Positions 1 to 17,415 of a stretch of 64,000 nt of DNA are shown piece by piece; the stretch's first letter is position 1; each line of letters starts with the position of its first letter. The translations under genes and the position numbers were made by a program. The DNA lies in NCBI RefSeq assembly GCF_036967205.1, contig NZ_CP146022.1, positions 1 through 64,000 of the forward strand. The letters are read 5' to 3'. This DNA is from Streptomyces sp. Q6 (GTDB taxonomy: Bacteria; Actinomycetota; Actinomycetes; Streptomycetales; Streptomycetaceae). Below the pieces are notes generated by a model. The model did no database searches, was not told the DNA's origin, and worked only from the letters and a program-made list of their open reading frames with translations.

Positions 1-133
1 ACGCGCCGCCGCTACGCGGCGGAAGAACGCCGCGCCCGCGCGGCTGGCCGGCCACCTGTGGCCGGTGCGGACAACTCCGTTGTCCGAGGCTCGGATCGCT
101 CCGCGATCCGGCGGAATCCGCTCCGCGGATTCC
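1..133. repeat. Telomere-like array of six tandem hairpins
   Basis: Six perfect inverted repeats follow each other almost without gaps: 6-22 (7-bp stem, loop TAC), 29-44 (6 or 7-bp stem), 48-65 (7 or 8-bp stem), 68-86 (8-bp stem, loop TCC), 92-110 (8-bp stem, loop TCC) and 113-133 (9-bp stem, loop TCC). On the complementary strand the three-base loops read GTA, GGA, GGA and GGA, all of GNA form. Classical Streptomyces telomeres carry closely spaced palindromes whose 3'-strand loops are GCA, so this array fits the 3' overhang of a left telomere. The stem sequences do not match the archetypal terminus I remember, so this would be a different telomere class. Whether base 1 is the true end cannot be seen from the window. 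Confidence 0.72.
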
Positions 134-326
134 TTAAAGCGGCAGCTACGGACGGGGATTGGGAGGGTGCCAGCCTTCCAATTTTGTCCTCTGCCCTGAG
201 GGCTGCAGGCTGCTCCTCCCCCGGTTCTGCCACGCAGTCGATCTGCGTCCGGGGTCGCCTCTCTGTCTTGCTCTCCTCATCGTACTGGTTCGGTGAGGAG
301 CCTGTCTGCTGTATGGAAGCAGAAAA
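134..326. other. Non-coding subterminal region
   Basis: No gene is supported between the hairpin array and the 3' end of the helicase gene. It holds one further weaker inverted repeat at 232-248 (6-bp stem, loop TCGAT). This is the usual position of subtelomeric sequence outside the first gene of a Streptomyces linear replicon. Confidence 0.5.
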
Positions 327-2813
327 CTATGTGATCTTCGAGGGTTGGTGGAGGGCCTCTGTGGAGGATGTGCGGCCGGTCACGGTCCAGTTGCTCTTGA
401 GGATCTCGGTCATCAACTGGTCTTGTTCTTGGGTGAGTTGGTCTGCGTTCTGCTTGGTGCGTACCTTGCAGAGCCACGGGCCGATCATGACGTGTTCGCC
501 GTCGATCTCCATCCCTTCCCGGGCGTTGGGCGGGCGGCCCCAGCGTTCCACGAAGAGGCGCAGGAGTTCGGCGGTCTGCCGGAAGGAGCGGCGGCGGCCT
601 CGTGTGCTGGGCGTGGCGCTCGTACTCCGTACGGGGAGCGGTACTTGATCGGGGGTCAGGCCGAGGTCGGTGAGGAGGTCGCGCTGGCCGTCGGCGAGCT
701 GGCTCCAGGTGGTGAACTGGCGGTGCAGCCAGCCGCCGGCCTTGACTCCGTCGATCGTCAGGTCCCGGCGTAGCGTGGCGGGGTCGTGGCCGGCTTCGAT
801 GTGGCGGCGCAGCAGGTGGTATTTGCGGTGCCAGTCGGGTCCGTGCGGGAGCTGCCAGTTGGGGTCGAGGGTGGTGAAGTGCTGTTCGCGGCTGGGGGTG
901 AGGAGGCCTTTGCGGGCGCGGGCGCGTTGGTCGACGAGGAACTGGCCGCCGGGTTGGGTTGCGGGGATGGCGAGGTGGCCGTGGACGGCGTGGAAGGCCT
1001 CGACGGTGGCGAGGTTGGCTTGCCAGGCGGCTTCGTTTTCGTCCCAGATCATGCTGAGGGCTTCGAGTTCGGCGATCCAGTCGGTGGTGAGTGCGTCTTG
1101 GTGGTAGGCGGTGCGCTGGCCGGTGATGAAGGAGCCGAGGCGGTATCCGTAGGCGTCCTCGTAGTCGGTGGGGACGCGGAGGTGGCCGTGTTCGGCGTGG
1201 TAGCGGACGGCGGCGGCGAGGCCGGCGCGGCGGGGTGCTGAGAGGACAGCGCCGTCGGAGGGCCAGGCGATCAGGTCCATCGCGCGGGCGATGTGGTCGG
1301 CATCCAGGGTGAAGTCGAAGCGGAAACGGCGCGCGATCAGTTGGTGGGTGTCGGTCTCCAGGCGGCGCTTGGCGTGCTTGCGAGGGGCGCGGGCCGTGAT
1401 GGACTGGTCGTGGTGGCGCAGGGCCGCGGTGATGAGCCAGAGGGCCTCGTAGGGGGTGCCGAGGAGGTCGGTGGGTTCGGCGTCGGGTGAGGTGTAGGCG
1501 GGGATGACCAGGCTCGCCATCTTGTGGTCGAGTGTGGGGGGCTTGCGTAGAGCGCGGCCCAGGGCCTGGACGATGCGGCGCACGCTCGCGGTGCGGTCCG
1601 CGAACACGATCGCGTCCACGGCTGGCAGGTCGACGCCCTCGCCGAGGACTTGGGCATTGGTCAGGATGCCGCGGGTGGCCTTTTCGAAGCGGTCGAGGAT
1701 GGTGTGGCGCTGCTCGGGAGGATGGGTGCCGTTGATCGACTGCACACTCAACTCGGTGGCCCAAGAGGGGCGTTGGGTTTCGGGGAGGGTGCGCAGGGTG
1801 TGGGGGAACTGGCGGGCGAAGTCGCTCGCGTCCGCGATCTGCTGGAAGTAGACGATCACATGGTGGAGGTCGTGCTCGCGCATGGCCTTGAGGACGGCCA
1901 GGTGCAGTGCGCTCGTTCGGCGGGCCGTGGTGCCGAAGCCGGTCTGGAGGTCGGTGTCGGTCAGGGCGCTGCGCAGGTCGGTGTCGGTGATCGTGGGGAT
2001 GAGGAGCTGGTAGTCGGCCAGGACGCCGTCGTCGATCGCGTCCGCGTGGGAGTAGGTGTGCAGACGGGGGCCGAAGACCTTCGGGTCGTCCATCGAGGCG
2101 ATGAGGGACGGGGCTTCCCATTGCGGGGCGGTGGCCGCGGTGCGCTTGGGCTGCGGGCGCGCGTCCGGGACTTCGGTCAGGCGCGGGGCTTCCCACTCAT
2201 ACGGGGTCGCGGTCAGGTATAGGCGGCGGTCGGCACGGACGCGCTGGTTGTCGTGGATCATCGTCCACTGCTTGTCCCAGGACCCGGCGGTGCGGTGCGC
2301 TTCGTCCACCACCAGGAGGTCGAAGACGGGGACCGGGAAAATGGTGTGCTGGGTCTCTTCGATCCTGGCCAGGGAGTCGAGGGTGACGAACACGGTCGCC
2401 CGCTCACGCCGTTTCCTGCGCTGCGCGAGCCAGTACGCCAGGTAGTCCCCCGAACCCGTACTCATCGCGCCGGCGTCGGCGAGCAGCGGGTGCTTGCCGG
2501 CGTCGAGGGAGGACACGGCCATCAGCGCCTCGGAGCGGCCATCGGTGCGGGCGGCCTGGGCCCACTGGGCGATCAGGTCCCAGCTCGGCACCGCGACCAG
2601 CAGGTGATGGGTATCCAGTGCCTCGGCGCTTCTGAGCGCGATGAGCGTCTTGCCCGTCCCGCACGCGGACACGATGTGCCCACGCGAGCCGGGGTGCTTC
2701 AGATGCCGGACTGCGGCCTCGATGGCCGCGTTCTGATCCGGGCGCGGCACACGACGACCTGCAGGGACGGTCGAGGGTGCTGCAGCAGCCGCTGGCTCGA
2801 GGTTGGAAGACAT
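327..2813 (-). CDS. Superfamily 2 DEAD/DEAH-type helicase with helicase-associated domains
   Basis: 828 residues. An SF2 core is visible: Walker A ACGTGKT at about residues 50-56, DEAH box at 170-173, TATP motif III at 201-204, and a QALGRALR motif VI in the second RecA-like domain. The C-terminal third has short repeats of the helicase-associated (HA) type, each with a conserved Trp and a GHL.VP or GR.P.. pattern. It is predicted to be an ATP-dependent nucleic-acid translocase. The start at 2813 has a GAGG about 9 bases upstream. It is the outermost gene and is read towards the hairpin array. Terminal helicase-like genes (the ttrA type) are known next to Streptomyces telomeres, so the position suggests a role at chromosome or plasmid ends. 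That role is inference; the helicase call is firm. Confidence 0.88.
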   Translation of the reverse strand: MSSNLEPAAAAAPSTVPAGRRVPRPDQNAAIEAAVRHLKHPGSRGHIVSACGTGKTLIALRSAEALDTHHLLVAVPSWDLIAQWAQAARTDGRSEALMAVSSLDAGKHPLLADAGAMSTGSGDYLAYWLAQRRKRRERATVFVTLDSLARIEETQHTIFPVPVFDLLVVDEAHRTAGSWDKQWTMIHDNQRVRADRRLYLTATPYEWEAPRLTEVPDARPQPKRTAATAPQWEAPSLIASMDDPKVFGPRLHTYSHADAIDDGVLADYQLLIPTITDTDLRSALTDTDLQTGFGTTARRTSALHLAVLKAMREHDLHHVIVYFQQIADASDFARQFPHTLRTLPETQRPSWATELSVQSINGTHPPEQRHTILDRFEKATRGILTNAQVLGEGVDLPAVDAIVFADRTASVRRIVQALGRALRKPPTLDHKMASLVIPAYTSPDAEPTDLLGTPYEALWLITAALRHHDQSITARAPRKHAKRRLETDTHQLIARRFRFDFTLDADHIARAMDLIAWPSDGAVLSAPRRAGLAAAVRYHAEHGHLRVPTDYEDAYGYRLGSFITGQRTAYHQDALTTDWIAELEALSMIWDENEAAWQANLATVEAFHAVHGHLAIPATQPGGQFLVDQRARARKGLLTPSREQHFTTLDPNWQLPHGPDWHRKYHLLRRHIEAGHDPATLRRDLTIDGVKAGGWLHRQFTTWSQLADGQRDLLTDLGLTPDQVPLPVRSTSATPSTRGRRRSFRQTAELLRLFVERWGRPPNAREGMEIDGEHVMIGPWLCKVRTKQNADQLTQEQDQLMTEILKSNWTVTGRTSSTEALHQPSKIT

Positions 2814-2907
2814 CGGGTACGGCCTCAGCTCGCGGCGGAATGGTCGCCGTCCATCCTTCCGTACTCGCGGCGGCCCGTATGGGCACCTGGCGAACCTGCC
2901 TGAGCGG

Positions 2908-3375
2908 CTACACCTGTTCCTGGTACACCTTGATGTCGGCGGGTCTGAGTGTGCGGATGGTTATCCAGGCTGCTCGCGCGCTCAGCTTTTCGGCCCACTC
3001 GGCGAGATCGTCTCCGGCGCCGTGGAAGAACCATGAGTGGAAGCTGCCGAGGGTCTCCAGGGCGGGAGCGGGTTCGTATCGAAGCTCGCAGTGGACCTGC
3101 ACGTAGTGGTCGTGGTTGCCGTCGCTGTCGGTGATTTCGAACTGCCGGGCGAGGTCCAGCATGAACGTGGCAGGGCCGTCGAAGGCGTAGGTCCCGTATT
3201 GGAACAGGAGGCCATCTGCATCGGGGGTGTCCGAGACGTCAAAGAGTCGTCGGCCAAAGCGTAGGAAGGCGAGCCAGGCGCCTTCCGTATCCAGGTCAGC
3301 GGACTCCTGCTGTCCAGCCCTCAGTTCGCCCTCAAGGAGCTCGGCGGCCTCGTCCATCGGTAGTCTTCGCGTCAA
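2908..3375 (-). CDS. Conserved-looking hypothetical protein
   Basis: 155 residues, acidic and rich in aromatic residues, with no signal peptide or membrane segment. I chose the TTG start at 3375 because a GAGGAGG lies 7 bases upstream; an ATG seven codons further in (3357) is the alternative. Codon use is typical of the neighbourhood. I do not recognise the family. It lies 94 bp upstream of the helicase start on the same strand and could be cotranscribed with it. Size and composition resemble the many small cytosolic Streptomyces proteins near chromosome ends, but no function can be assigned. Confidence 0.6.
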   Translation of the reverse strand: MTRRLPMDEAAELLEGELRAGQQESADLDTEGAWLAFLRFGRRLFDVSDTPDADGLLFQYGTYAFDGPATFMLDLARQFEITDSDGNHDHYVQVHCELRYEPAPALETLGSFHSWFFHGAGDDLAEWAEKLSARAAWITIRTLRPADIKVYQEQV

Positions 3376-3446
3376 TGCGTGCCCTCCTCGTCCGCTGCAG
3401 CGGGGCTGAGCGTACTCAGTCAGGCGGGCCTTCCCGTTTTCCAGCG

Positions 3447-4583
3447 TTAGAAGATGCCGGCCTGCATGTGCTGCGTGAGGTTCTCGAGGATCTGGCGCAG
3501 CCACGGAGCACGGGCGGCCGGTAGTCGGACCAGGGTGTGCTGGAACGTTTCTGAGTCAACTCGGAACAGTTGGTCGGGTCTGGGTTCGGGCGGGTCGTCG
3601 CGGAGCACGCCGTCGGGCATCCCTCCAGACGCGGGCGTGGGTAGATGTGGCTCAGGGTGGATCATCCACCGCCACACGCCGAACGGCAGTGGCACCCGGT
3701 ATGCCGAGGCAGCCGAGCCGGGCGGTCTCCAAGTCTCCCCTGTCTGCGGATGGACCGGCACGAGAAGGATGTCGGCGTCCTCGTCGGCTACGGGCAGATC
3801 TGGTCCGGCCACGACCGCCGGACGCTTTGGCCCTCCCGCGGGCAGCAGGGCGTCAAGGGCGCGTTGAAACACCTGAGCGGTGAGGCCGCCCGGGACGGTC
3901 ACCGGCCGGCCTTGTGAGGCCGCCAGCAGGTGGGCGAGCGCATGGCCGGCTGCCGCTTCCCATTGCGGGCTCCAGGACCAGAAGTTGTTCAGGCCCAGTC
4001 GTGATCCCCACACCATGGTCATCGGCGCGAATGGAGGTGTGCCCTTCTCGTTGTCCACCAGCTCCGTCCAGGAGAGCAGTGTGTCCTCGGTGCCTTCGGC
4101 GGGGAGGCGGCGTACGGCGTCGGGGGCGAGCCACACCGCCTGCCACAGCGAGCAGTCATCGACCCTGCTCGCCACGGGGAGGCCGCATGACATGCAGGCC
4201 ATGTTGGGGCCGTCGGCCCCGTCGATGCCGCAGCAGGCACCACCACGCTTCTCCGGGAGCAGCACTGTGTTGCGGGTATCTCCGGGAGCGATGACGATCG
4301 CGCCCGGCGCGCCATCGGAGAGGGCGTAGACCGGTGCGTAGATGCCGCGGGCCGCTGCTTCGTCGGGGGTGATCTCCTCCCACCGCCGCCATGGTGGTCC
4401 CGAAGGCTCCGGGGCCACGGCGAATGTGCCCGGCTCCATCAGGGCCGGGAGCTGGATCGAGTTCCCGTACTTTTGGCGGGCGTGGGCCGGCAGAGCAACC
4501 TGGGACAGCGGGGCGGTCAGCTCGGCGCCGCACCCCGCGCACACGAAAACGAACAAATGTCCTCCGCTGGGATTCAGAGGCAT
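3447..4583 (-). CDS. Hypothetical cysteine-rich, probably zinc-binding protein
   Basis: 378 residues from the ATG at 4583; longer readings upstream overlap the divergent gene and lose coding character. Cysteines occur in a zinc-ribbon-like pattern: CAGC at residues 15-18, CC at 117-118, CMSC at 130-133 and C144. The middle and C-terminal parts are rich in Trp and Pro, without membrane segments. This layout suggests a structural metal site in a cytosolic protein. I do not recognise a named family beyond Streptomyces hypothetical proteins. The next gene is divergent (start 4695), leaving a 111-bp shared promoter region. Confidence 0.66.
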   Translation of the reverse strand: MPLNPSGGHLFVFVCAGCGAELTAPLSQVALPAHARQKYGNSIQLPALMEPGTFAVAPEPSGPPWRRWEEITPDEAAARGIYAPVYALSDGAPGAIVIAPGDTRNTVLLPEKRGGACCGIDGADGPNMACMSCGLPVASRVDDCSLWQAVWLAPDAVRRLPAEGTEDTLLSWTELVDNEKGTPPFAPMTMVWGSRLGLNNFWSWSPQWEAAAGHALAHLLAASQGRPVTVPGGLTAQVFQRALDALLPAGGPKRPAVVAGPDLPVADEDADILLVPVHPQTGETWRPPGSAASAYRVPLPFGVWRWMIHPEPHLPTPASGGMPDGVLRDDPPEPRPDQLFRVDSETFQHTLVRLPAARAPWLRQILENLTQHMQAGIF

Positions 4584-4694
4584 GGTCCCAGGACGCTGGC
4601 GGTCAGCCAACGGATTTCCGGGCGCGGTGGGAAGGCAACCGCACGCTTCGTCGGACGGCGTCTGCTCTTTGCACGCGTGCAGAAGAATGGGGGC

Positions 4695-5696
4695 GTGCTG
4701 ACCTATGTCTACCGTGTCACCAAGTACGATCCAGCCGACCGTGACGAGTACGGGCACTACGTCGGCACGGAAGACATCGTCAGCGACCACGGCGAGGTCG
4801 AGGCGGCTTCTCTCCAGGCGGTCGCTGAGTTCGCCAGGGACACCGCCGTCGATCACTTGGCCGTACGCGAACCAGGGGTTCCGTCCCTTGCGCACTTCGG
4901 CGTGGAGTCGGCGATGGACTGCTTCGGGTTGGACGGCCTCTTCCCGGATGATTTGGCCGGCTTCTACGACGGGGCAGAGGTGGCGCTCGATGTCGCCCTG
5001 GAGTTGGTGCGGATCATGCTGCGGGGCAGCGGCGCCTGGTGCCGGCTGGAGGTGGAGGACACCTTCGCGGTTCATGTGGGATGGGACCAGTACCTCTACA
5101 TCAGCAGCAGCCGGCCTTGCGAGAAGGCACTGGCTCGAGCCCGCGGGCTCGGGCTGTTCCCCGAACGTATCGCTGTGTCCCCGTACGCCTTCGAGGACGA
5201 GGAGGAAGGCGTGCAGCGTCCCGCAGACGATGAGTTCTGGTTCGACCTCCTCCGCGCCGTCGCCACAGGTCGCGCCGGAATCCTCGAGGAGACCTATCTC
5301 GATGGCGCCTCACGGTGGCACCTCCTCACCCGCGAAGCCATCGAGGCGGTGCGTGCCGGACTGGCTCCCCGGGCCCGCCTGGAGGTCTGGCCTCCCTTGT
5401 CCGGTGACATCGACGCCGTCCTGGGCAACCTGCCCGAGGACGGACTCGTCGAAGGCGTCTGGCAGGACAAGAACGGCCACATCCACAGCGCCATCGCCGA
5501 CGAGGACGAGTTCCCGGAACTTTCCGCCCTGATCTCCAGCGCCTCGGGCGCCGCGCTCCTGTCCGTATACGCGGGCGAACGTGCACCTCTGTGTACCGCG
5601 GTCATGCCCGACAACGACGGAGTTCTACGGGCTCGTTGGCGGACCGAGCCAACACCGAACGACCAAGACTGGGCACTACGGCACTCCCAAGCCTGA
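4695..5696 (+). CDS. Hypothetical protein, possibly RNA-binding (uncertain)
   Basis: 333 residues from a GTG at 4695 preceded by an AGAATGGGGGC purine stretch; reading further upstream would run through the divergent gene. The protein is acidic and soluble. An N-terminal part has alternating strands and helices (VYRVTKYDPADRD near the start), and a C-terminal part contains paired acidic stretches. Close relatives in Streptomyces are often annotated only as hypothetical or RNA-binding; I cannot confirm that from the sequence. It is divergent from the zinc-ribbon-like gene and followed at 120 bp by the LRV-repeat gene on the same strand. Confidence 0.62.
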   Translation: MLTYVYRVTKYDPADRDEYGHYVGTEDIVSDHGEVEAASLQAVAEFARDTAVDHLAVREPGVPSLAHFGVESAMDCFGLDGLFPDDLAGFYDGAEVALDVALELVRIMLRGSGAWCRLEVEDTFAVHVGWDQYLYISSSRPCEKALARARGLGLFPERIAVSPYAFEDEEEGVQRPADDEFWFDLLRAVATGRAGILEETYLDGASRWHLLTREAIEAVRAGLAPRARLEVWPPLSGDIDAVLGNLPEDGLVEGVWQDKNGHIHSAIADEDEFPELSALISSASGAALLSVYAGERAPLCTAVMPDNDGVLRARWRTEPTPNDQDWALRHSQA

Positions 5697-5815
5697 GGGC
5701 GGCTACGCGGCCTTCGCAACGCGAAGCGCTCGGAGCTGGGTGCAGGCCAGTAGCCGTACGTGGGCGCCTCAAATCCGTCGGTCGTTCGACTGCGGGCCAG
5801 GCAGGATGTGTCCCT

Positions 5816-7342
5816 ATGAACCCTGTGCTGTGCGGCCTCGCGTCCAATGTGGCGCTGCCCGTCGAGCTGGTCGACCGCCTGATCGTGGTCGCGGACGCGG
5901 ACATCGCTGACGGCCTCGCCAGCCGCGCGGACCTCAGCCGTGAGCAAGCGGTCGCCTTGGCCGTGCGGGGCGAGGGGAGCGCCGTGCGACTCGCGTACGA
6001 AGGCCGGCTGGCAGCTGCGGACATCAACCCCCGTACGCAGCCGCAGGCCGCGCTCGCCCTGCTCGAGGAGGGTTTCGGTGACCTGGAGTGGACGCGGCTG
6101 TTCGCGGTGGATCCCAACGTCGAGCGTCGGGCGAAGCTGGCCGCCTGTCCCGGTCTTTTGGCGGATGTGCGGGAGATGCTCGCCGCCGACCGGGACGTAC
6201 GGGTCGTTGCGGAACTCGCGTTGTGGACCACGGCGGATGTGGCCGCCCGTCTCGCGCGCCACCCGCATGCCGAGGTCCGTCGCGCGGTGGCGGCCAACGA
6301 GGCGACACCACCACAGGTCCTGGCCATGCTGATCACCGGCGAGGGGCTGCCACCGGCAGAGCAGTGCCTGGTCTGCGACAGCGAGGAGACGCCCTACGTA
6401 CACGATCCGCACTGTCCGCGGCTCGACTGCGGCCTGTCCGCCGATGCCTCGTGCTCCGGCTCGCACGAGTCCACCCTTCACGAGCTGGCGGAACAGGCCC
6501 TGTGGAACCCCGCCACACCGATCGAGGCGCTCCTGCGCTTCACCGGCCATCCTTCGGCGCTGTTGCGCTGCCGGCTCGCTGCCCGCCCCGATCTGCCGCC
6601 GGAGACAGTGGCGCGGCTCGCCGGTGACCCTGTTCCCGGCGTACGAGCCGATCTCGCGGAGAATCCCACGATCAGCGAATCTGTGATGCGGGTGCTGGCT
6701 GCCGATGGCGGTCACGACGTGCAGCGCAGACTGGCGCACAATCCCCGGGTGCCGCTCGACGTACTTTCCGGCCTCGCCGCCACCACCAAGATCGGTTCGA
6801 CCCTGCTGCCGCGGATCGCCTCCGCTTCTCCCTCCGAGGTCGAGGAGTTGTCCACGTCGTCGAATCCGGTAGTGCGGATGCTCCTGGCCGAACGGCGTGA
6901 TCTGCCGGCCGAGATCCGCGACAGGCTGGCCGACGATCCGGACGCGAAGGTGGTCAAGTCCATCGCCGGACACCCTGGCCTCTCGGAAGCTCAGCTCCGC
7001 TCCATGGTCGAGCGCCACGGATCCCGGGTCATCGCCAAGGTGGCGGCCAACCCGCAGACGCCGTCCGCCCTGCTGGAATACCTGACGGCGCACATGACGC
7101 CGGTCCGGAAAGCACTGCGTGAGGTCGCCCGGCACCCCAATGCGACTGGTCCGGCGCTTCTGGTCTGTCTGACGGACCAGGACGCGCGGCGGATCGCTGC
7201 CGGGCACGCGGCCCTGCCGCCACAGGCCATCGTCGAATTGCTCGCCGACCACGACTGGCAAGTGGTGGAAGCCGCGGCCGCCAACCCGTCTCTGCCGCCG
7301 GCCGTCATGGTGGAGTTGGTGCTTGAGCTCAACGGGGCGTGA
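5816..7342 (+). CDS. Leucine-rich-repeat-variant (LRV/HEAT-like) protein
   Basis: 508 residues starting at the ATG at 5816. Most of the length consists of about 24-residue alpha-helical repeats of the type (L/V)..LA.(D/N)P...VR..(L/V)A.(N/R)P.LP...(V/L)..L, the signature of the leucine-rich repeat variant (LRV) family, which builds a solenoid for protein-protein contact. An insertion at about residues 183-213 contains several Cys and His (C..C...H....C...C) and may bind a metal, as LRV proteins of other bacteria carry Fe-S or zinc clusters. No membrane segment is seen. Partners are unknown. Confidence 0.75.
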   Translation: MNPVLCGLASNVALPVELVDRLIVVADADIADGLASRADLSREQAVALAVRGEGSAVRLAYEGRLAAADINPRTQPQAALALLEEGFGDLEWTRLFAVDPNVERRAKLAACPGLLADVREMLAADRDVRVVAELALWTTADVAARLARHPHAEVRRAVAANEATPPQVLAMLITGEGLPPAEQCLVCDSEETPYVHDPHCPRLDCGLSADASCSGSHESTLHELAEQALWNPATPIEALLRFTGHPSALLRCRLAARPDLPPETVARLAGDPVPGVRADLAENPTISESVMRVLAADGGHDVQRRLAHNPRVPLDVLSGLAATTKIGSTLLPRIASASPSEVEELSTSSNPVVRMLLAERRDLPAEIRDRLADDPDAKVVKSIAGHPGLSEAQLRSMVERHGSRVIAKVAANPQTPSALLEYLTAHMTPVRKALREVARHPNATGPALLVCLTDQDARRIAAGHAALPPQAIVELLADHDWQVVEAAAANPSLPPAVMVELVLELNGA

Positions 7343-7372
7343 GTCCGGCGCAGCGTGCCGTCACGTTGTCTT

Positions 7373-7945
7373 TCAGGCGGCGAAGCCGATGTTGGAGACG
7401 TATTCGTACTGGCCCCATTGGCTGCCGAGGTCGGGCAGGACGTCGGTGGCCCATACGTCGTCGAGAGTCTGCTGGTCTCTGTTGGCCCAGGCGGTCACGA
7501 TGCGGTCCCAGCGCCGCACGTTCAGTTTCCGGAACTCCACGACGCGCTGGTGCGGCCTGGCGACCTGGGACTGGTTGAAGGGGTGGATCTCCACCCTCGT
7601 GCCGCCGCAGGAGTTGAGACGCCGCAGGAGGTGGCGGGCGACGTTGTGGCGGCGCACCGTGCGGTAGACGGCGTCGATGCGTTCCAGGTTGGCCTTCGAG
7701 GGGCGGCGTTTGCCGTCCAGCCATGTCTTCAGGGTCCGGTCCGTGACCGTCAGCCCTTGTTCACGGGCGGCCTGGAGCATCCGCGGCGTCTTGGTGAGGT
7801 AATGGAGGCGGGCGAGCAGGCCGCGCGGGGCGGTGACGGGAGTCGTGATGAAGTCGACGAGGCCGTCCAGGCGGCGGGCGACCACCTCGCTGCCTCTGGT
7901 CCCGCGGGCACCGTATTTGCCGAACTCGAGGTTCTTCTCGGGCAC
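7373..7945 (-). CDS. Candidate telomere terminal protein (Tpg-like)
   Basis: 190 residues from the GTG at 7945, which has a perfect AGGAGG 6 bases upstream; reading further up to 8050 would overlap the previous gene. The protein is strongly basic. Residues 40-110 hold a helix-turn-helix-like segment (TDRTLKTWLDGKRRPSKANL) followed by an Arg-rich helix. The C-terminal part (140-190) has a WDRIVTAWANRDQQTLDDVW helix and an aromatic tail. Streptomyces terminal proteins Tpg/Tpc are small (about 185-260 residues), basic, HTH-containing proteins that prime telomere end-patching. Size, charge and layout match, but sequence identity to Tpg looks low. It is the last gene of a leftward block and lies 7 kb from the telomere-like array. 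An ordinary HTH protein remains possible. Confidence 0.5.
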   Translation of the reverse strand: MPEKNLEFGKYGARGTRGSEVVARRLDGLVDFITTPVTAPRGLLARLHYLTKTPRMLQAAREQGLTVTDRTLKTWLDGKRRPSKANLERIDAVYRTVRRHNVARHLLRRLNSCGGTRVEIHPFNQSQVARPHQRVVEFRKLNVRRWDRIVTAWANRDQQTLDDVWATDVLPDLGSQWGQYEYVSNIGFAA

Positions 7946-8028
7946 TCGCCCCTCCTGCCCCTGACGGTGACCGTGGCTTGGGCCAGCGCACGGCCCTGGC
8001 CTGGATACCGGTGTCAGGAGGGCGGTTG

Positions 8029-9180
8029 TCATCCAGCTGAGCGCAGCCACTTCTGGTAGCTGACGGCATTGAGGTCGGGATGCTCAACGCCGGTGTACCA
8101 CCGCACCACAGGTGGTTCGGGTGTCTTGTTCCGTTTCCTGTGGCGGGTTTTGGGGTGGGGCCAGGGCGGGGCGGGCTGCGGCGGACGCAGGCGGAACTGC
8201 TCGGCAAAGGTGGTCAGGTGCGGTAGGGCCCGCGGCGGGCCGGCGGAGAAGAGGGAGTCGTCGCCGCGCGGCGACAGATGGGCCAGGTTGGCTGCCGCCC
8301 GCAGGAAGCACCTGGCCCAGGGCGGGACGGTGTAGGTGGCGCAGTGCGAAATGTAGCCGTCGGAGGACGAACCGCCGTAGCGGGTGAAGCCGGGGCCGTG
8401 AAGGGTGAGGGTGGCGGCGTCTTCGTCGAGGTGGTTCACGTGAACTGTGTCGAGCTGGGAGACGGAGGTGCCGGTGAAGACTGCGGTGGCCAGGGCGGCG
8501 GCGATCTGGGGTGCGGCGGTGCGGGCGCCCAGGCGGTGGGCGATCTGGTCCATGCCGTAGGCGCGTTCGGGGACGTAGGGGCGGTCGGCTGGGGGTGGAG
8601 TACAGCGGCAGGCGGGGAAGTCCCGGCGGAAGTTGAGGAAGGCCAGGGCCGGCACAGTGATCCAACGGCCCTCGGCGCCACGGCGGGGCGCAGGAGTAGT
8701 GGGGGCTTTTGCCAGCAGGTCGCCTGTCGGACCCTCGGTGGAGACGGTGTGGTGGTCGACGTCGTGTAACGCGGTGCGCATCACGGCGGGCGGGCGTCGG
8801 GTGTGGCAGACGGCCACCAGGTGCACTCCGGTGCGCAGGCGCAGGGTGAGCAGTGCGGACCAGCTCTTCTGGTCCAGGAGGTGGGCGCGCAGCACGGTGA
8901 TACGGGTGATGGGCAGGGCGAGAATCCAGGCTGCTGCGATGTTCACGACGGGCGGTCCCTGGGCGCCCCAGTCGCCCGGCAGTTCGGTCGGCTTGCCGAG
9001 GGCGGCGAGGATGTCGAGAGCGAGCGCGGTACCGGACGCGGCGGGCGTGGGGTGGACGGTGATCCGGCCGGCGGCTGGATGGTGCGCGGCCAGCGCGGCG
9101 CGGATGACGGCGGCGTCGTCGGCGGGGTTTAGGAGCACGGTGACGGGCGGCGCGGCCGGATAGATGACCCTTCTGCTCAT
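8029..9180 (-). CDS. Unknown protein with degenerate ATPase-like and recombinase-like parts
   Basis: 383 residues. The ATG at 9180 overlaps the upstream stop as ATGA, so translation is coupled. Residues about 1-150 alternate strands and helices in the order of a P-loop ATPase (ASGTALALDILAALG where Walker A would be, then ITVLRAHLLDQKSW and GVHLVAVCHTR), but the lysine of Walker A is missing. Residues about 220-330 contain AAALATAVFTGTSVSQLDTV, the shape of the tyrosine-recombinase box TGxRxSEL without its catalytic arginine. Function is unknown. Together with its neighbours it may form a DNA end-binding complex. These fold suggestions are my inference. Confidence 0.6.
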   Translation of the reverse strand: MSRRVIYPAAPPVTVLLNPADDAAVIRAALAAHHPAAGRITVHPTPAASGTALALDILAALGKPTELPGDWGAQGPPVVNIAAAWILALPITRITVLRAHLLDQKSWSALLTLRLRTGVHLVAVCHTRRPPAVMRTALHDVDHHTVSTEGPTGDLLAKAPTTPAPRRGAEGRWITVPALAFLNFRRDFPACRCTPPPADRPYVPERAYGMDQIAHRLGARTAAPQIAAALATAVFTGTSVSQLDTVHVNHLDEDAATLTLHGPGFTRYGGSSSDGYISHCATYTVPPWARCFLRAAANLAHLSPRGDDSLFSAGPPRALPHLTTFAEQFRLRPPQPAPPWPHPKTRHRKRNKTPEPPVVRWYTGVEHPDLNAVSYQKWLRSAG

Positions 9181-10595
9181 GCGGAGTTCCGGGCGCGAGC
9201 GCATCGGGTGGACAGGGCGAGGGCGAAGCGCAGATCCGGGTGGAGAACGGGGATGCGCGCCGTGGAGCGGGCATCCAGCAGACGGCGCTCGGTGAGATGG
9301 GCCAGGGCCGACGCGCTCAGCGGGGCACGGCCTGCGGTGGCCGGATGTCCGCTGAAGGCCGCGGCCAGGAAGGCTGCTTGTTCCAGGGTGAGGTCGCCCG
9401 GCGCGGCGTTGTCGGTGTGGGCGAGCAGCACGGCGCGCTCGCTCGAACTCAACGTGTGGGGGCTTGGGGGCGGTTCGGCCGGCCGGAGCGGCGGTGTACG
9501 ACGTGGCGGACGGCGCTGGGGCGCGGGTGAGTCGCCGGTGAGCTGGTGGCAGCGGGCGCGGTGGTGCCAGTCGGGCCCGTAGTGCGCGTGGGTGAGCGCG
9601 GGGATGGGCAGTGCCGCGTCCTTTGCGAGGGCGTCGAGGCGGTGGCCGAAGGAGAGCTCGAACAGCGGGAAGTGGTCCGCGGCATGGCCCAGGCGGCGAA
9701 AAGAGCGGGCGGCGGCGAAGACCGGGCGCACGCGGGGCGGGATCACGTAGCAGACGCCGGGCGGTTCACTGGGCGAGCCGTGCCCGGGGTGCCACACGTC
9801 GGGGACGGTCAGCCGCGTGCAGCGCGCGTCGAGGCCCGAGAGCGGGGTGGCGCGCAGGGCGTCGGGGTGGGTGCCGGTGAACAACAGGGCGAGGATCGCC
9901 GCGAGTTGGACCGGGTGGGCGATGCCCCGGCTGGCCTGGTGCAGGACGTACCCGGTGACGGGGCGGGTGGTCAGCCCCGGTCCTGACGCACTGTCCGGGA
10001 CCGGGGGCGTCTGAAGGAGCAGACCGCTGGTGAGGAAGCCGGCCTGGGCGCCTCGCAGCCGGGCCACCGTGTGCGCCCGGCTGGGGCTGGTGGCGGTGAG
10101 GCGGGCCAGGAAGAGCTCCGTCTCCTGGCGATGGGCGGCCTGCGGGACGCGGGCGCAGTGGGTGCGGGCCGCGTACAGGCCAGCGTGGTACTGCGCGTCG
10201 ACGCGGGCGAAGCCGTCCTCGTCCAGACGGTGGTGGGCCTCGGCGCGGAAACGAGTGAAAGAGCATTTCGACAACTCAGTCAGCGCGGGCAGTTGGGCGA
10301 AGCGGTCCGGCGGCAAAGCAGCGGGGCTCGGGAGGGGCGCCGGAAGCGGCGGCAGGGCGGGGCGGGTGAGCAGCGGTGCGAGGGGCGGCGGGTCGGGGTC
10401 CAGGCCGTTGCTCTTCAGGAGGGTGTGCAGTCGCCGGGCGGCATGTTCGGTGGCGCAGTGGGCGAACAGGAGCAGGGAGATTCCGGTCCCCTCCCGCAGG
10501 CAGGCGAGACGCCGGACACCGGGCGGGGGACGTCGCAGGCAGCGCCGGGCGGTGCGAGAGTACGGGCGCCCTGCGCAGCCCGGCGCCGCGTTCAC
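9177..10595 (-). CDS. Unknown protein, possibly inactive tyrosine-recombinase fold
   Basis: 472 residues from a GTG at 10595 that overlaps the stop of the MBL gene as GTGA; a longer reading up to 10925 lies entirely inside the MBL gene and is rejected. The N-terminal half is helical and rich in His, Arg and Ala. About residues 240-330 contain ILALLFTGTHPDALRATPLS and a later strand-helix pair, a layout like the catalytic domain of tyrosine recombinases and similar to the next gene (FTGTSVSQLDTV), again without the usual RHRY residues. The middle is Pro/Arg-rich. The next gene starts within its stop codon. Function is unknown; partnership with the terminal-protein-like gene is inferred from coupling. 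Confidence 0.58.
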   Translation of the reverse strand: MNAAPGCAGRPYSRTARRCLRRPPPGVRRLACLREGTGISLLLFAHCATEHAARRLHTLLKSNGLDPDPPPLAPLLTRPALPPLPAPLPSPAALPPDRFAQLPALTELSKCSFTRFRAEAHHRLDEDGFARVDAQYHAGLYAARTHCARVPQAAHRQETELFLARLTATSPSRAHTVARLRGAQAGFLTSGLLLQTPPVPDSASGPGLTTRPVTGYVLHQASRGIAHPVQLAAILALLFTGTHPDALRATPLSGLDARCTRLTVPDVWHPGHGSPSEPPGVCYVIPPRVRPVFAAARSFRRLGHAADHFPLFELSFGHRLDALAKDAALPIPALTHAHYGPDWHHRARCHQLTGDSPAPQRRPPRRTPPLRPAEPPPSPHTLSSSERAVLLAHTDNAAPGDLTLEQAAFLAAAFSGHPATAGRAPLSASALAHLTERRLLDARSTARIPVLHPDLRFALALSTRCARARNSA

Positions 10596-11488
10596 GCCCT
10601 CCACCGGTTGACCACGAACCGGTCCCCGTCCCTGCGGATCTCCGCCGCGCCGGGACCGGGAAAGTGCGCGGGAATCACCAACTCCCCCTCGTCGGCCGCT
10701 CGTTGCAGTACTCGGACCCTGCTGGCAGCCGACTGTGTCCGGTCCACGCACATCGCGCTGCTGCAGGTCGGCGCGAGGAACTGCACCGGACTGTGCAGCA
10801 GATCTCCTACGAAGACGGCCCGGTCCGCGCCGGAGGCGAGCCGTAGCACGGACGAGCCCGGGGTGTGCCCGGGCGCGGGCTCCAGGACGAGACTCGCGTC
10901 GACGCGATGCGAGTCCCCATCCCACAGCACAGCCTGCCCTGCCTTCACCACCGGCGCGACACTGTCCGCGAAGAGGAGAGCGTGATTGCCGTGCGGGGTG
11001 CGGGCAGCGCCGCCAGGTCCGTAGAAGTCATGGTCCACACGCGGCACGAGATACGTGGCGTTCGGGAACGTCGGTACCCAACTTCCGTTTTCCTCCACGG
11101 TGTTCCAGCCCACGTGGTCGCCGTGGAGATGCGTGTTGATGACGAGGTCGACGTCCTCGGGACGCACCCCTGCCCGCGCGAGCCGGTCGAGGAAGTCGGT
11201 GTCGAGGCCGGAAAAGTGCGGGGTGGCCGGACGCTCGCGGCCATTGCCCACCCCCGGATCGACCACGATGACCTGGCCTGCGCTGCGCAGCACCCACGCC
11301 TGCACGGCGGCGAGCACCGCGCCGCTGCCGGGGTCCTGGAAGTGCGGGGCGAGCCACTCCTCGCCCGCACGCCAGGTGTCCTCGATGCCGGGAAACAGGT
11401 CGCCGGGCGCCCCGAACGGCCCGCGCACCTCCTCGACCCTGATGATCTCGATGTCGCCGAGCGTGATGCTGTCGATGTCGCTATCCAT
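10592..11488 (-). CDS. MBL-fold metallo-hydrolase
   Basis: 298 residues from the ATG at 11488 (a GTG three codons upstream is the alternative). The metal-binding signature HLHGDHVGWN is clear near residue 115, and a later PGHTPGSSVL supplies the next histidine, so this is a dinuclear-zinc hydrolase of the lactonase/glyoxalase-like MBL class. The substrate cannot be read from the sequence. It is divergent from a frameshifted AraC-type regulator at 11595, a common pairing for a regulated detoxification enzyme. Its stop overlaps the next gene by 4 bases, so the three genes beyond may share its transcript. Confidence 0.86.
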   Translation of the reverse strand: MDSDIDSITLGDIEIIRVEEVRGPFGAPGDLFPGIEDTWRAGEEWLAPHFQDPGSGAVLAAVQAWVLRSAGQVIVVDPGVGNGRERPATPHFSGLDTDFLDRLARAGVRPEDVDLVINTHLHGDHVGWNTVEENGSWVPTFPNATYLVPRVDHDFYGPGGAARTPHGNHALLFADSVAPVVKAGQAVLWDGDSHRVDASLVLEPAPGHTPGSSVLRLASGADRAVFVGDLLHSPVQFLAPTCSSAMCVDRTQSAASRVRVLQRAADEGELVIPAHFPGPGAAEIRRDGDRFVVNRWRA

Positions 11489-11594
11489 GCCGGCCACACT
11501 AGGAACGGCAGGGCGAGCGCCTCAATGCTTGATGGGATCAGACCGATACGTGATCGGCTCACCTGTCCGGGCGCCCTCCGGCTACGCTCCCCGC

Positions 11595-12499
11595 ATGGAC
11601 GTGGTCAGCGACGCGATAGCCGCCGTACGAACGGGCTATCCGCACGCCAACAGGCTCCAGGTCAGCGGGCGTTGGTGCGTACGCCTGGCCCCGTACGAGG
11701 GAGCGGGCTTTCACGTGGTGCTCACCGGTGACTGCTGGCTGCGGACCGACACCGGCACCGCCCTCGCCCTGCGCCCCGGCGACGCGGTGCTGCTGCCGCA
11801 CGGCGCAGGCCACATACTGGCCGACGCCCCAACAGATCCGAGCCGCGCCACACGTTTCGACACGGCCCGGGAGCCTCCTGTGGCACCGGCCGGGCCCAGC
11901 ACGGTGGAACTCCTGTGCGGCAAGTACCGCCTCGACCACAGCCGCTCCCACCCCCTGCTCGCCGAACTGCCCGACGTCGTCCATCTGCCGCACGACGACC
12001 CCCACACCCTGAACTCCGCTCCGCCGTCAACCTGCTCGCCGGCGAAGCCGCAGCCCCCGGCCCCGGCTCCTGCGCGGCCCTACCCAGCCTCCTCGACCTC
12101 CTCCTCATCTACATGATCCGGGCCTGGACCACACAGGCCCCGGCCGCCGCTCGCTGGCCCGCCGCCCTCGCCGACCCCGTCGTCACCGAAGTACTGCGCC
12201 TGCTCCACACCGACCCGGCCCACCCCTGGACCGCCGAGCACCTGGCAACCCGCGCAGGCGTCTCACGCGCGACACTCAACCGCCGGTTCACCACCCTGGT
12301 CGGCCGCCCCGCGATGTCCTACCTGACATGGTGGCGGATGAACCGCACAGCAACCCTCCTGAGCACAACAGACGCCCCCCTGCAATCAGTGGCCAAGGAA
12401 GTCGGCTACAGCTCGCCCTACGCCCTGTCACACGCATTCCTCAGAGAATTCGGAGTAACCCCAGGCCGATACCGGACAAGCCGCGCAACACCCCACTGA
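11595..12499 (+). pseudogene. AraC-family transcriptional regulator, frameshifted
   Basis: The first part (11595 to about 12002) reads as an AraC-type cupin sensor domain (AVRTGYPHANRLQVSGRW, then ALRPGDAVLLPHGAGH). The second part (about 12005-12499) continues in another frame with HPELRSAVNLLAGEA and the two HTH units ending FLREFGVTPGRYR. The two pieces make one normal-length regulator of about 300 residues if one base is restored near 12000-12005, where the run CGACCCCCACACCC occurs. It is either a pseudogene or a sequencing indel in a C run. It is divergent from the MBL hydrolase, which it presumably regulated. Confidence 0.8.
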
Positions 12500-13181
12500 C
12501 CATCACCTCTCCAGCCCCCAGTCCGATGCCGCCGAAACCGCCACGAACTCCCTTGCCGGGCACCACAGCACTTACCGACCCTTGCACGCCGACCCGCACC
12601 CCAGGTTCGACCCGCGCCTCCCCGCCCGACAACCGACTGCCGAACCCGCGCATCCCCACCAAGAACTCTTCACCTGCGCGAACTCACAGGGCTAAGAGAG
12701 AGCGAGGAACTCCCCTGCCACCTGGCCCAGTTCCACCACCCCCCATGACACATCCCGGATTCCGGCACCGCAAACACAGCCGGGACGCGAGCGGGCGAGC
12801 CAAATGAAACCGGACCCGCCTCACAAGTCCGGCCCGCACCCGGATCTCCACATTGGTCGAGTCGAGGAACACCCGCGCCCCGCGGCCAGGTGCTGCTCCA
12901 GGAAGGCGTTCTGCCGTGCGACCGCGGGGGGGCACCGACTGGTCGCCCGCGCAGCCATCGTGTTCACGGCGAAGTGTGCTCCGGGCTGCGGCTGGGACAG
13001 TGTCGAGTCCAGCGAGGGCAGCTGGTACATCGTGCGCACGTTCGCGGATTTCCTCCGCCAGCTGGACGAGGTACCGGCCCACGCAGCGGCGAGCCGACCA
13101 CGGTCTGACGAAGACGACAATGACCCCCGAGGCGTGTTCAGTCAGGTGATGACCGGCTGCCCGCTGGAGGGCTGCGTCAGT
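12500..13181. other. Gene-poor stretch with decayed sequence
   Basis: No intact gene is supported over 680 bases. The minus strand at about 12780-12900 reads VFLDSTNVEIRVRAGL before losing frame, which looks like a scrap of a longer protein, perhaps a transposase. The plus strand at about 13020-13080 reads WYIVRTFADFLRQLDE, which could be the tail of a SUKH/SMI1-type protein. Both are too short and unsupported by starts. Confidence 0.4.
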
Positions 13182-14114
13182 TCAGTTGCGTTCAGCAGTC
13201 ACGGTGCTCCAGTCTTGGCGCGTTGCCCACTGCGCGAAGGGCGTCGTGGTCAGGCCGTAGGCGGCGGCGTGGTGGGGGCGTGCGGGGTAGCCGACACGGT
13301 TGTTCCAGCGGTCGCCGAACGCTGCGGATACGCCGCTACGCTGCGTCTTCTCTTCCAGGGAGATGAAGTCGGTGCTGATCTCGCGGCCGGTCACCTGGGA
13401 GAGGACGTCGGCCATCTGCGGGTAGGTCAGCGCATCGCCGGCGAGGTCGATCTCGGCCTCGTGGAACCTGTCGGGCTCGGCGACGGCGGCGGCGACAGCG
13501 GCACCCAGGTCGTCGGCGCAGATGAGCGCCAGTTCGGTCTGCGGGCTCATGGCGGTGACCAGTTTGCCGTGAGGCAGCTCGGGGGCCATGTAGTCACGGC
13601 GGGGCGGGAGGAAGTTCTCCATGTACCAGGCGGGCTTGAAGACGGTCCAGCGGTGCAGCCCTGAGCGACGGATGGCTTCCTCGGTCTCTTCCTTCTGGTT
13701 CCAGTATTCCTCCATCACCGGATCGTTGATCTCGAGGTCCGGGTGCTGGGCACGCCATCCGGTCGCCGACACCGATGTGTGCAGGAGCTGGGTGATGCCG
13801 GCGCGCTGGGCCGCCGTGACGATGTTGCCGGCCTGGCGGCTCTCGGCGGGGTCGGCCGGGTCGATACTGGCCAGCTGCACCGAGAAGACCGCGTCGTGTC
13901 CGGCGCCGGCCGCGTGCAAGGAGGCGACGTCCTCCAGGTCCCCGGTGGCCAGGGCGGCGCCCAGCGCGGCCAGGGCCTGGGCGGGAGCCGAGGAGGGGTT
14001 GCGCACCAACGCGGTGACGGGGTGTCCCGCGCGCAGGAGCGCGCGGGCGACAGCGCCGCCCTGCATTCCGGTCGCCCCGGTGACCAGCACCTTGGCCTTG
14101 TCGTGGGATGTCAT
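13182..14114 (-). CDS. NmrA/HSCARG-family NAD(P)-binding protein
   Basis: 310 residues from the ATG at 14114. The N-terminus has the dinucleotide-binding motif VLVTGATGMQGGAVARAL (a GxxGxxG Rossmann turn), and the body matches the NmrA-like atypical short-chain dehydrogenase family. Such proteins sense or use NAD(P) and often lack the YxxxK catalytic pair; here HTSVSATGW and EYWNQKEETEEAI occupy that region without an obvious YxxxK. It lies 119 bp downstream of the oxidoreductase gene on the same strand and may belong to the same TetR-controlled unit. Confidence 0.85.
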   Translation of the reverse strand: MTSHDKAKVLVTGATGMQGGAVARALLRAGHPVTALVRNPSSAPAQALAALGAALATGDLEDVASLHAAGAGHDAVFSVQLASIDPADPAESRQAGNIVTAAQRAGITQLLHTSVSATGWRAQHPDLEINDPVMEEYWNQKEETEEAIRRSGLHRWTVFKPAWYMENFLPPRRDYMAPELPHGKLVTAMSPQTELALICADDLGAAVAAAVAEPDRFHEAEIDLAGDALTYPQMADVLSQVTGREISTDFISLEEKTQRSGVSAAFGDRWNNRVGYPARPHHAAAYGLTTTPFAQWATRQDWSTVTAERN

Positions 14115-14233
14115 GGTGAGCCTGCTTTCGGTTGATCGTGCTTTCTGGTGTCTGGGCACGGGACTGTCGGACTCGGCACGGCATCGCCGGGCCGGCCAGG
14201 ACGGGCGTGGCCGGGGGGTTCTGGGGTCTCGGC

Positions 14234-15181
14234 TTAGAACACGAGCACGGGCCGGCCCCGCACTCCGCCTTCCTCGATGAGCCGGTGCGCTTCAGCGACC
14301 TGTTCAAGCGGGTAGGTCCCCGCGACGCGGAGCGTGAGGGCACCGGATTCGGCCTGGTCGCGCAGCCGCGTCAGAGCGGCTGTGTCGCGGATGCGGTCGT
14401 AGACGAAGACGGGGAACCAGCGCACGCCCCGGGCGGTGGCGCCGGTGAATCCCTTGACGGTCGCGATGGCGCCGCCGTCGCGTACCGCTGGGGCTACCGC
14501 GTTGCCCATCGACCCGCCGTCGATGACTCCGTCCGCACCGTCGGGGCGCAGCCGGCGGACCGCGTCGGGGAAGTCGTCCCCGCGAGGGAGTACATGATCG
14601 GCGCCCAGGCTCGTGACGAGGTCACGGTCCCTGTCCGCTGCGTCGGCGATAACCGTCAGCCCGGCCGCTTTGGCCAGCTGCACGGCGTAGCCGCCGATCC
14701 CGCCGGCGGCGCCGGTCACCGCCACCGTCGCTCCCGGGGCCAGGGCCAGCGCGTCCAGACCCATCTGCGCGGTGAGTGCGGCCATCAGCAGGGTCGAGGC
14801 AGCCGTCAGGTCGACGCCCTTCGGCGCGCGGACCACCGATTCCGCCGGTACGACCACGTACTGCGCCTGCCCGCCCAGAGCCAGCTTCGGCTCCGTGACC
14901 GCTATTACCTCGGCGCTCAGGGCCAGCTCCGGTCGTGTTCCCTCTCCGACCTCGTCGATCGTCCCGGCGATCTCCCAGCCCACGACGTACACGTCCGAGG
15001 GCGGGTTCATCTCCGGGCTGTACTTGGCGGAGAGCCCGGTGCGGATGTTGACGTCGGCCGGGTGTACAGCGGCGGCGGCCACCTTGATCCGTACCTGCCC
15101 CGGTCCGGCGTGCGGTTCGGGCAGCTCCAGCACCCGCATGACCTCGCGGCCGCCGAACTCGGTGAAACCTACGGCCTTCAC
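14234..15181 (-). CDS. NADP-dependent zinc-free alcohol dehydrogenase / quinone oxidoreductase
   Basis: 315 residues, the usual length for the medium-chain dehydrogenase/reductase superfamily without the structural zinc loop. The N-terminus ([20 protein letters not shown]) is the GroES-like domain; the cofactor loop is [20 protein letters not shown]. It probably reduces quinones or enones with NADPH. The divergent TetR gene at 15307 and the 125-bp shared promoter region suggest induction by an electrophile or drug sensed by that regulator. Confidence 0.88.
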
Positions 15182-15240
15182 TGCGCCACCTCACTATCGC
15201 TGACTGCACCCTCGAACCCGAGACGCAGATGTTCCGGGTA

Positions 15241-15269
15241 TTCAGCGACGTTAACAGCCCGGCTATACT
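15241..15269 (+). promoter_or_regulatory. Candidate promoter of the TetR gene
   Basis: TTCAGC at 15241-15246 and TATACT at 15264-15269 are separated by 17 bases. This gives a sigma-70-like promoter with a transcription start near 15276, 30 bases before the TetR start. The AT-rich bases just downstream (15270-15290) would be a natural operator position. Confidence 0.45.
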
Positions 15270-15306
15270 CGAAACAAATCAGTCCTAGTTCGGCGAGGAG
15301 AGCCCC

Positions 15307-15936
15307 ATGCCACAACCCGGTGCACAGCTGCGGCGGCCTTCCGGCCTCTCCGGACCGCCCCGCGATCCCGCCCGGGACGCCCGAATCCTGCACGCCGCAA
15401 CGGAGCTGCTCGCCGAAGGCGGCTACCCGGCCATGACCATGGACAAGGCCGCGGCACGGGCCGGGGTGGGCAAGGCGACCGTGTACCGCCGCTGGCCCTC
15501 GCGCGCCGAACTCGCCGCGGAAGCCCTCAGCCACGCCGGACTCGCCGACGACGTCACGCCGGTCATCCTCGGCAACGGGCACCTGCGCGACGAACTCCTC
15601 GCCACGCTGGCCAGCGCCATCGGCAGCCAGGACACCTCCCGGGTCGACCTGGTCTCGGCCCTGCTGGACACCGCTCGCCAGGAGCCGGAGCTGTGCAGCC
15701 TCATCCGCGTGCGCTACGTCGAGTCCCTGCACCAGGCACTCGCCGGCGTGCTGGCCCAAGCGGTCCAGCGCGGCGACCTGCCCTCCCGACCCAACCACCC
15801 CCAGGACGGACACGCGATCGCGGTCTCCGCCGCCATCGCCCTCCTCGTCCACTGGGGAACCATCCACGACCGTCCGATCAGCGACGAGGACATCGCACAG
15901 ATCGTCGACGGCGTCCTCATGCCCCTGCTCCGATAG
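15307..15936 (+). CDS. TetR-family transcriptional regulator
   Basis: 209 residues. The N-terminal HTH is typical: ARILHAATELLAEGG, then MDKAAARAGVGKATVYRRWPSR ending at about residue 65, followed by a helical ligand-binding domain. GAGGAG at 15295-15300 lies 6 bases before the ATG. It is divergent from the oxidoreductase/NmrA genes and likely represses them and itself until a ligand binds. Confidence 0.9.
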   Translation: MPQPGAQLRRPSGLSGPPRDPARDARILHAATELLAEGGYPAMTMDKAAARAGVGKATVYRRWPSRAELAAEALSHAGLADDVTPVILGNGHLRDELLATLASAIGSQDTSRVDLVSALLDTARQEPELCSLIRVRYVESLHQALAGVLAQAVQRGDLPSRPNHPQDGHAIAVSAAIALLVHWGTIHDRPISDEDIAQIVDGVLMPLLR

Positions 15937-16034
15937 CCCCTGGGCCACGCCGTGCCCGTGCACGCCAGTGAGCGGTGACGTCGACTGCGACGCGGCGTCG
16001 GCTGATCATGCCCACCGGCAAACGCTCCCAGGGC

Positions 16035-16472
16035 TCACTCGTTCTCGTCGGTACTCGGCCCTCCGCTCCTCTCGGTCAAAGGCCGGACGTCACCACTGCT
16101 CAACACGCTGAACTTGACAGAGAAGCAGCCGCTGATCTCTTCGCGCAGCACATCGAGGCAGACGACGATGGCGACGTCGTCCAGGGCGGAGGCCAACGTC
16201 GATTCCTCCGAACCCGCCGCGCCCACGGCGACGATGAGCGTGCCCGGCTCCAGGACGCGCAGTACGGCGGCGTCGGCAGACGTGGTGCCGGGGTCTTCCT
16301 GCGGGTTGTGCACGGCGGTCCATCGGTCCGGCCCGCCCACGCGCGTGTGGAGCCAGCCGAGGCGTGTGCCGATGATCTGCTCCGCCCAGTCCATCGCTGC
16401 TTCGACGTCGCGGACAAAGGTGCGCTGGAAGGCCTCGTGGCAGTCGAGGTATCGGCCGTCGCGATGAAGCAT
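16035..16472 (-). CDS. Hypothetical protein, 5' end uncertain
   Basis: 145 residues from the ATG at 16472. The coding character continues upstream for about 16 codons (YTLAPAHLSGAVGGW), and a GGAGG sits just before that stretch, but no standard start codon follows it in frame; an ACG is in place where an ATG would be expected. The gene may therefore have a damaged or unusual start. Beyond that lies a perfect hairpin (16550-16573), so the gene cannot begin further upstream. The protein is soluble, alpha/beta, and not recognised. Confidence 0.55.
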   Translation of the reverse strand: MLHRDGRYLDCHEAFQRTFVRDVEAAMDWAEQIIGTRLGWLHTRVGGPDRWTAVHNPQEDPGTTSADAAVLRVLEPGTLIVAVGAAGSEESTLASALDDVAIVVCLDVLREEISGCFSVKFSVLSSGDVRPLTERSGGPSTDENE

Positions 16473-16549
16473 CCAGCCCCCGACGGCGCCGCTCAGGTGG
16501 GCGGGGGCAAGGGTGTAGCGCGGGAACGTTGTTCCTCCAGACCTGAAGA

Positions 16550-17395: not shown

Positions 17396-17415
17396 GTGGT
17401 GCTCCTCACAACCTC

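Follow-up and report, generated by a model that had tools for sequence, protein, structure and literature searches.

Six telomere classes are distinguished in the available text of PMC8743542 (2021), among them Sg2247, a class whose commonest loops are GGA, GAA and GTA, whose similarity is highest toward the 3' end, and whose members include the plasmids pSCAT and pSHJG1 as well as Streptomyces rimosus ATCC 10970 and Streptomyces albidoflavus J1074; its terminal proteins are called elusive there. It is the only paper on the class by name that our survey of the open literature found. In the accessible part of PMC3937824 (2014), S. albidoflavus J1074, which serves widely as a production host, is described as lacking tpg and as having a gene for a Tap-domain protein ahead of a pseudogene; a novel pair is assumed. 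Here we analyse the first 64,000 bases of the chromosome of Streptomyces sp. Q6 (hereafter the window, G000:C1:1-64000; the chromosome, C1, has 8,566,166 bp and a second replicon, C2, has 385,579 bp). The window opens with a row of hairpins (1..133) that is, judged from its sequence, a further member of the published Sg2247 class lying 25 nt short of the terminus, and we propose that telomeres of this class are probably patched by a 190-aa candidate terminal protein, encoded in the window, together with a Tap-like protein of ~510 aa. A concrete candidate for the Sg2247 end-patching pair seems to be new, none being found in the open literature. A named gene pair makes the terminal-protein question testable, may explain linear chromosomes in Streptomyces without Tpg (109 of 392 genomes under the Tpg cut-off), and could mark telomere type in unfinished genomes.

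The telomere at the left chromosome end

The hairpins and the repeat that contains them are as follows.
1..133, minus (3') strand: telomere assigned to the Sg2247 type, left chromosome end, with the outermost 25 nt (palindrome I) absent; the assignment draws on contig start, fold (z -5.8), tip match and covariation
6..22, minus strand: hairpin of 7 bp with GTA loop, the second hairpin of the full telomere
29..44, minus strand: hairpin of 7 bp with a 2-nt centre
48..65, minus strand: hairpin of 8 bp with a 2-nt centre
68..86, minus strand: hairpin of 8 bp with GGA loop
92..110, minus strand: hairpin of 8 bp with GGA loop
113..133, minus strand: hairpin of 9 bp with GGA loop, the innermost
1..19402, no strand: terminal inverted repeat (TIR), repeated in inverse orientation at the right end of C1 with 99.94% identity

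The preliminary description, made from the letters of the window, had read six hairpins filling positions 1-133 and four clean GNA triloops on the complementary strand; the inverted repeats in the sequence confirm the former and the count of the latter is exact (three GGA and one GTA, against five GGA and one GTA in the full-length telomere of the genome G051). Four perfect triloop hairpins with stems of 6 bp or more fall in this stretch; 2000 stretches of 133 nt, drawn at random from window positions 2000-63000, average 0.06 and never hold more than 1. Folding of the complementary (3') strand, which the same description had put forward as a check, gave -56 kcal/mol for the minus strand of positions 1-140, far below 200 dinucleotide shuffles, which average -38.5 ± 3.0 (z -5.8) and never fold as stably. 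We also scored 15 telomeres, chosen for similar layout among those fetched, against seven hairpins on the 3' strand: 95.3% of cells are paired, a figure favoured by the structure having been drawn from one of the aligned sequences, and changes on both sides of a pair occur at 24 of 54 stem pairs, in 64 cells; 500 shuffles gave 20.0 ± 3.7 such cells and never reached 64, and sliding the pairing partners gave 12 at most. Further pair types are less marked (32 versus 27.9 in shuffles, 12 of 500 as high). The predicted telomere fold is thus supported by both energy and covariation.

The contig C1 starts at base 1, and alignment of the right-end copy of the TIR with the left shows 2 mismatches and 9 gap openings in 19.4 kb; within the hairpins, the right-end counterpart of 29-44 is a GGA triloop with one mismatch, the left copy being one T short there. 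A hairpin array at the contig start with an inverted copy at the other end identifies a chromosome telomere with a 19.4-kb TIR, as the preliminary description had supposed when it placed a telomere here and asked whether the opposite end carries the copy. Its further supposition that base 1 lies close to the replicon end holds insofar as the contig starts there, the true terminus lying 25 nt further out. Indeed, the sequences of G051, G341 and pSCAT start 25 bases further out, and palindrome I, made up of the extra bases, is a hairpin with a 6-bp stem and a GGA loop. All three agree throughout the first 47 nt; window base 1 corresponds to position 26 of this tip and is identical over 22 of 22 positions, and the right end of C1, which extends 7 bases beyond the counterpart of window base 1, starts at tip position 19 and is identical over 29 of 29. 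Several assemblies end exactly on the first tip base (G051 at both ends, G128 at its left end, G341, G328, G237 and G143), and the right end of G128 is one base short of it.

The class tip is matched at 47 of 47 positions in pSCAT and at 46 of 47 in pSHJG1 (CP003276), and since both are listed members the window telomere belongs to Sg2247. The array had initially been taken for a new telomere, a claim that falls with this assignment; the class went unrecognised because the window starts inside the conserved tip and lacks its outer part. The accompanying label of non-archetypal is probably right, given that the genome has no Tpg (no match at E ≤ 0.001; best 0.008), and by eye the class tip is unlike the 13-nt archetypal palindrome quoted in the available text of PMC7205883.

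A search of 392 Streptomyces genomes with bases 1-150 found matches in 23 at E ≤ 1e-6 (hereafter the telomere set) and in 110 at E ≤ 1e-3, many of the latter short and internal. The array is in the main terminal in relatives and not the internal repeat whose discovery would have spoken against a telomere: 20 of the 23 genomes carry it within 200 nt of a contig end, the others having it 1.8 kb inside (G259), as a partial array in both arms, 32 kb from the ends (G351) or internally (G100). Internal copies of the tip alone do exist in some relatives.

Four such copies, each of the first two hairpins, reversed and 3-4 kb inside contig starts (L244:3122-3166, L245:3234-3305, L246:3839-3910 and L247:3089-3133, minus strand), lie by eye just 5' of a possible start codon and of a stretch near GAAnACGTCC that is loosely common to them. 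No TtrA-like open reading frame (ORF) was found between these copies and the contig start. Similar internal copies are present in plasmid records, and the four may be the 'pseudo-telomeres' mentioned in the available text of PMC8743542. At the right end of one contig (L028, G303:C17) the tip is preceded by a second innermost hairpin with its flank, an arrangement that would fit either the addition of a telomere at a short match or a loop in the assembly. Diverged tips occur in genomes with the 190-aa family near an end (L205, L206, L207 and L216, with 21/25, 22/26, 31/38 and 45/47 matches), and L218 and L222 have hairpins with GGA and GTA loops and a poor tip match; the diverged tips suggest a wider telomere family served by the 190-aa proteins. 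On C2, whose ends are L005 and L004, the right end carries an array of GGA-loop hairpins without the class tip, and the left end appears transposase-like by eye, so the C2 assembly may be incomplete there.

The candidate gene pair

Comparison of the chromosome arms of G000 (the genome of the window), G051 and G300 found few common genes and pointed to one gene in the TIR.
7373..7945, minus strand: candidate terminal protein of 190 aa, resembling a helix-turn-helix (HTH) protein, within the TIR; start set by alignment to homologues

Its product is 72% identical over 191 aa to a protein whose gene lies 17 kb inside the right end of G051. The family, which includes members at 40-55% identity, is conserved over its full length, with 53 of 191 columns invariant in 77 sequences (alignment A3, the window protein and 76 of 80 fetched loci), also beyond the HTH, and the structure model is confident (pLDDT 85, pTM 0.74). 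Each TIR of the genome holds one copy, and two more lie at C1:8295039-8295608 and C2:173244-173816, at least four in all; such copy numbers are lower bounds, 8 candidates having been scored per genome. Homologues bear the PGAP name 'transcriptional regulator'. The protein is Tpg-like in size and scores 14.3 bits against the Tpg model NF047541, under its 90-bit cut-off; weak Tpg matches of 14-16 bits, in the HTH region, were found in 3 of 4 candidate homologues scanned.

The gene immediately 5' of the 190-aa gene encodes a partner of ~510 aa in plasmid loci L007, L120 and L122 and in pSCAT. Among 207 loci found, the best 80, from named genomes, were fetched, and 52 of them show the same arrangement with 5-166 nt between the two genes. 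One intact copy is present in the genome of the window, 376 kb in (C1:375783-377261). All three partner proteins scanned match the NCBIfam model telomere_Tap (NF047542) with E 4e-22 to 7e-21 and 75-79 bits, best over partner residues 4 to 154-182; the scores are under the 600-bit cut-off, placing the partner as homologous to Tap and outside the equivalog. The C-terminal part is colinear with the C-terminus of Tap (hhalign E 7e-4, and 2.7e-4 for that part alone; single comparisons, with probabilities of 26% and 42%). A sequence search of the PDB with the partner profile returned 14 matches, all at residues 24-92, the HTH region.

Three C-terminal motifs of the partner, ALD[IV]NGAYLSALK, YVKAMYSKFV and MGTDE[LI]H, are near invariant (44 to 45 of 45 by pattern in alignment A4, which holds 45 of the 52 partners) and look by eye like motifs A, B and C of the family-B polymerases that use protein priming (phi29, PRD1), as do similar motifs of Tap. 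We raise as a tentative and rather doubtful extension that Sg2247 telomeres are kept by this previously unassigned pair with the Tap-like partner as a hidden DNA polymerase; if true, such an activity in the partner and Tap would explain the addition of nucleotides to the terminal protein by Tap. Comparing the partner or Tap with the phi29 and PRD1 DNA polymerases by hhalign gave no support (E 0.19-0.59, in alignments outside the motifs), and we have rejected direct homology to either polymerase on these values. Tap is said to have no polymerase motif in the available text of PMC4513846, and our survey of the open literature found nothing that joins Streptomyces, Tap, telomeres and family B DNA polymerases.

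Genomes with the telomere or its tip nearly all carry the gene family. Alongside the telomere set (one count on which used 22 genomes, G100 being dropped as internal), a search with the tip defined a tip set of 39 of the 392 genomes at E ≤ 1e-6 (50 at E ≤ 1e-5), genomes with only internal tips included, and the union of the two sets is 48 genomes. The 190-aa family is present in 159 of the 392 genomes, namely in 46 of these 48 and in 113 of the 344 others (Fisher 5.5e-18); close homologues (best E ≤ 1e-85, 84 genomes) are found in 38 of 48 and 46 of 344, respectively (1.8e-20). Tpg shows the opposite distribution: its model scores over the cut-off in 283 of the 392 genomes, and, judged from the best E per genome, it is depleted to 5 of 23 in the telomere set (p 3e-7) and 12 of 39 in the tip set (p 1.5e-8). 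Among plasmids, 49 PLSDB records contain the tip, with the best match at the end in 38 and inside in 11. The 190-aa gene is found in 32 of the 38 end-tip records; 2 others have the partner alone, 1 has fragments and 2 have neither gene, the gene check having covered all of them except CP003721; at least 4 of the 11 internal-tip records have the 190-aa gene.

The two genes form a divergent counterpart of tpg/tap. The sequence data show the identity of the telomere, the pairing of the genes and their co-occurrence with the telomere, and we consider it probable that the 190-aa protein and the Tap-like protein form the Sg2247 end-patching system. By analogy with the archetypal system, bidirectional replication would leave the 3' strand single-stranded, and this overhang would fold into a row of GNA-loop hairpins; the Tap-like protein would bind the folded overhang and add the first nucleotides, and the 190-aa protein would be covalently attached to the 5' end and prime the filling of the gap.

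Two further features lie near the telomere and the candidate gene.
327..2813, minus strand: helicase with HA domains (Pfam HA 8.6e-32, ResIII 1.1e-19, Helicase_C 8.6e-13)
8029..9204 and 9177..10925, minus strand: two overlapping ORFs 5' of the candidate gene, with no convincing family match

The helicase shares 31% identity with a right-end ORF of G051 and is likely TtrA-like, a name that draws on position and domains rather than on comparison with TtrA. The ORF at 9177-10925 and another near the right end of G051 share 39% identity over 344 aa. A SWI2_SNF2 search gave no lead.

Alternative explanations

Several observations weigh against assigning end patching to this pair. The candidate shows weak homology to Tpg, confined to the HTH region (hhalign E 0.0019, probability 14.5%), one of the four homologues scanned has no Tpg match, and in two another family scores equally or better. 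The structure model of the partner is poor (pLDDT 57, pTM 0.30). Of 7 plasmid loci examined, 3 (L119, L123, L124) have an unrelated gene upstream, the TIR copy of the 190-aa gene has no adjoining partner, and the C2 copy adjoins a partner remnant only. G240 and G382 have the tip and lack the 190-aa gene, both showing an internal tip copy only; conversely, 113 genomes have the family without a detected telomere, and G151, G193 and G387, which have ends near a 190-aa gene, lack the class tip, carry other ends and contain Tpg. Tpg co-exists with the tip in the 12 tip-set genomes counted above, and that set was not filtered for end position. The p-values overstate independence, the genomes being related and the telomere and gene often linked. 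Among plasmids, pSHJG1 has the tip without the gene, NZ_CP108583 lacks the gene (its sister plasmid has it) and NZ_CP108493 has fragments only.

Of the alternatives, the best placed bears on novelty and is compatible with the pair acting at Sg2247 ends: the pair may be GtpB/GtpA of S. griseus IFO 13350 in a wider distribution, for which we see a substantial chance, if somewhat less than an even one. The available text of PMC7205883 places GtpB-GtpA operons in strains with GGA-loop telomeres, gives GtpA as 18% identical to Tpg and applies a cut-off of 50% identity, which sits within the 40-55% range seen among 190-aa family members. The same text describes a plasmid of RLB1-9, named pRLB1-9.1 at that point and pRLB1-9.2 elsewhere in the paper, as having no Tap/Tpg homologue. 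We find both the 190-aa gene and the partner gene on pRLB1-9.2, which was therefore seemingly missed by the GtpA query at that cut-off, a point against the identity of the two pairs.

An unlikely alternative is that the 190-aa proteins are HTH regulators acting on subtelomeric or plasmid genes and travelling with the ends, the terminal protein being another. The PGAP name, the confinement of Tpg similarity to the HTH region and the frequent occurrence of the family in several copies and on plasmids would all fit a regulator; its pairing with a relative of Tap, its near-complete co-occurrence with one telomere class together with the depletion of Tpg, and the invariant columns beyond the HTH argue instead for a terminal protein.

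That the array represents a new telomere class is very improbable, and we reject it on the tip identity with listed Sg2247 members. Its stems are unlike those of other members and the absence of the conserved outermost 25 nt hides the class signature, but relatives with complete tips and the right chromosome end match the listed members, and the stem-loop pattern and loops are as given in the available text of PMC8743542. Least credible of all is an assembly artefact or internal repeat in place of a terminus, to which the small differences between the TIR copies, the left end of C2 (without a hairpin array by eye) and some internal copies in relatives might point, since the array stands at both the start and the end of C1 and separate assemblies end on the same tip base.

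Comparison with known telomeres and terminal proteins

With the described Sg2247 telomeres, the window shares the conserved tip (compared with pSCAT and pSHJG1), several GGA and GTA stem-loops, location at both chromosome ends and the absence of Tpg; it differs in lacking the outermost 25 nt and in its diverged stems. The candidate pair shares with Tpg/Tap (NF047541, NF047542; described in the available texts of PMC4513846 and PMC3572947) a two-gene layout in which a Tap-like gene precedes one for a protein of ~185-190 aa. The Tap model covers partner residues 4-154 and the C-terminal part of the partner is colinear with Tap, but the partner has ~510 aa where the Tap model has 695 positions, both proteins score far under the curated cut-offs, and the telomere class differs. 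Tac/Tpc of SCP1 is likewise an alternative end-patching pair; its Tpc has 259 aa and no homology to Tpg according to the available text of PMC3572947. GtpA/GtpB is, compared by description in the available text of PMC7205883, similarly atypical, being associated, like the candidate pair, with GGA-loop telomeres and a low identity to Tpg, and may belong to the same family.
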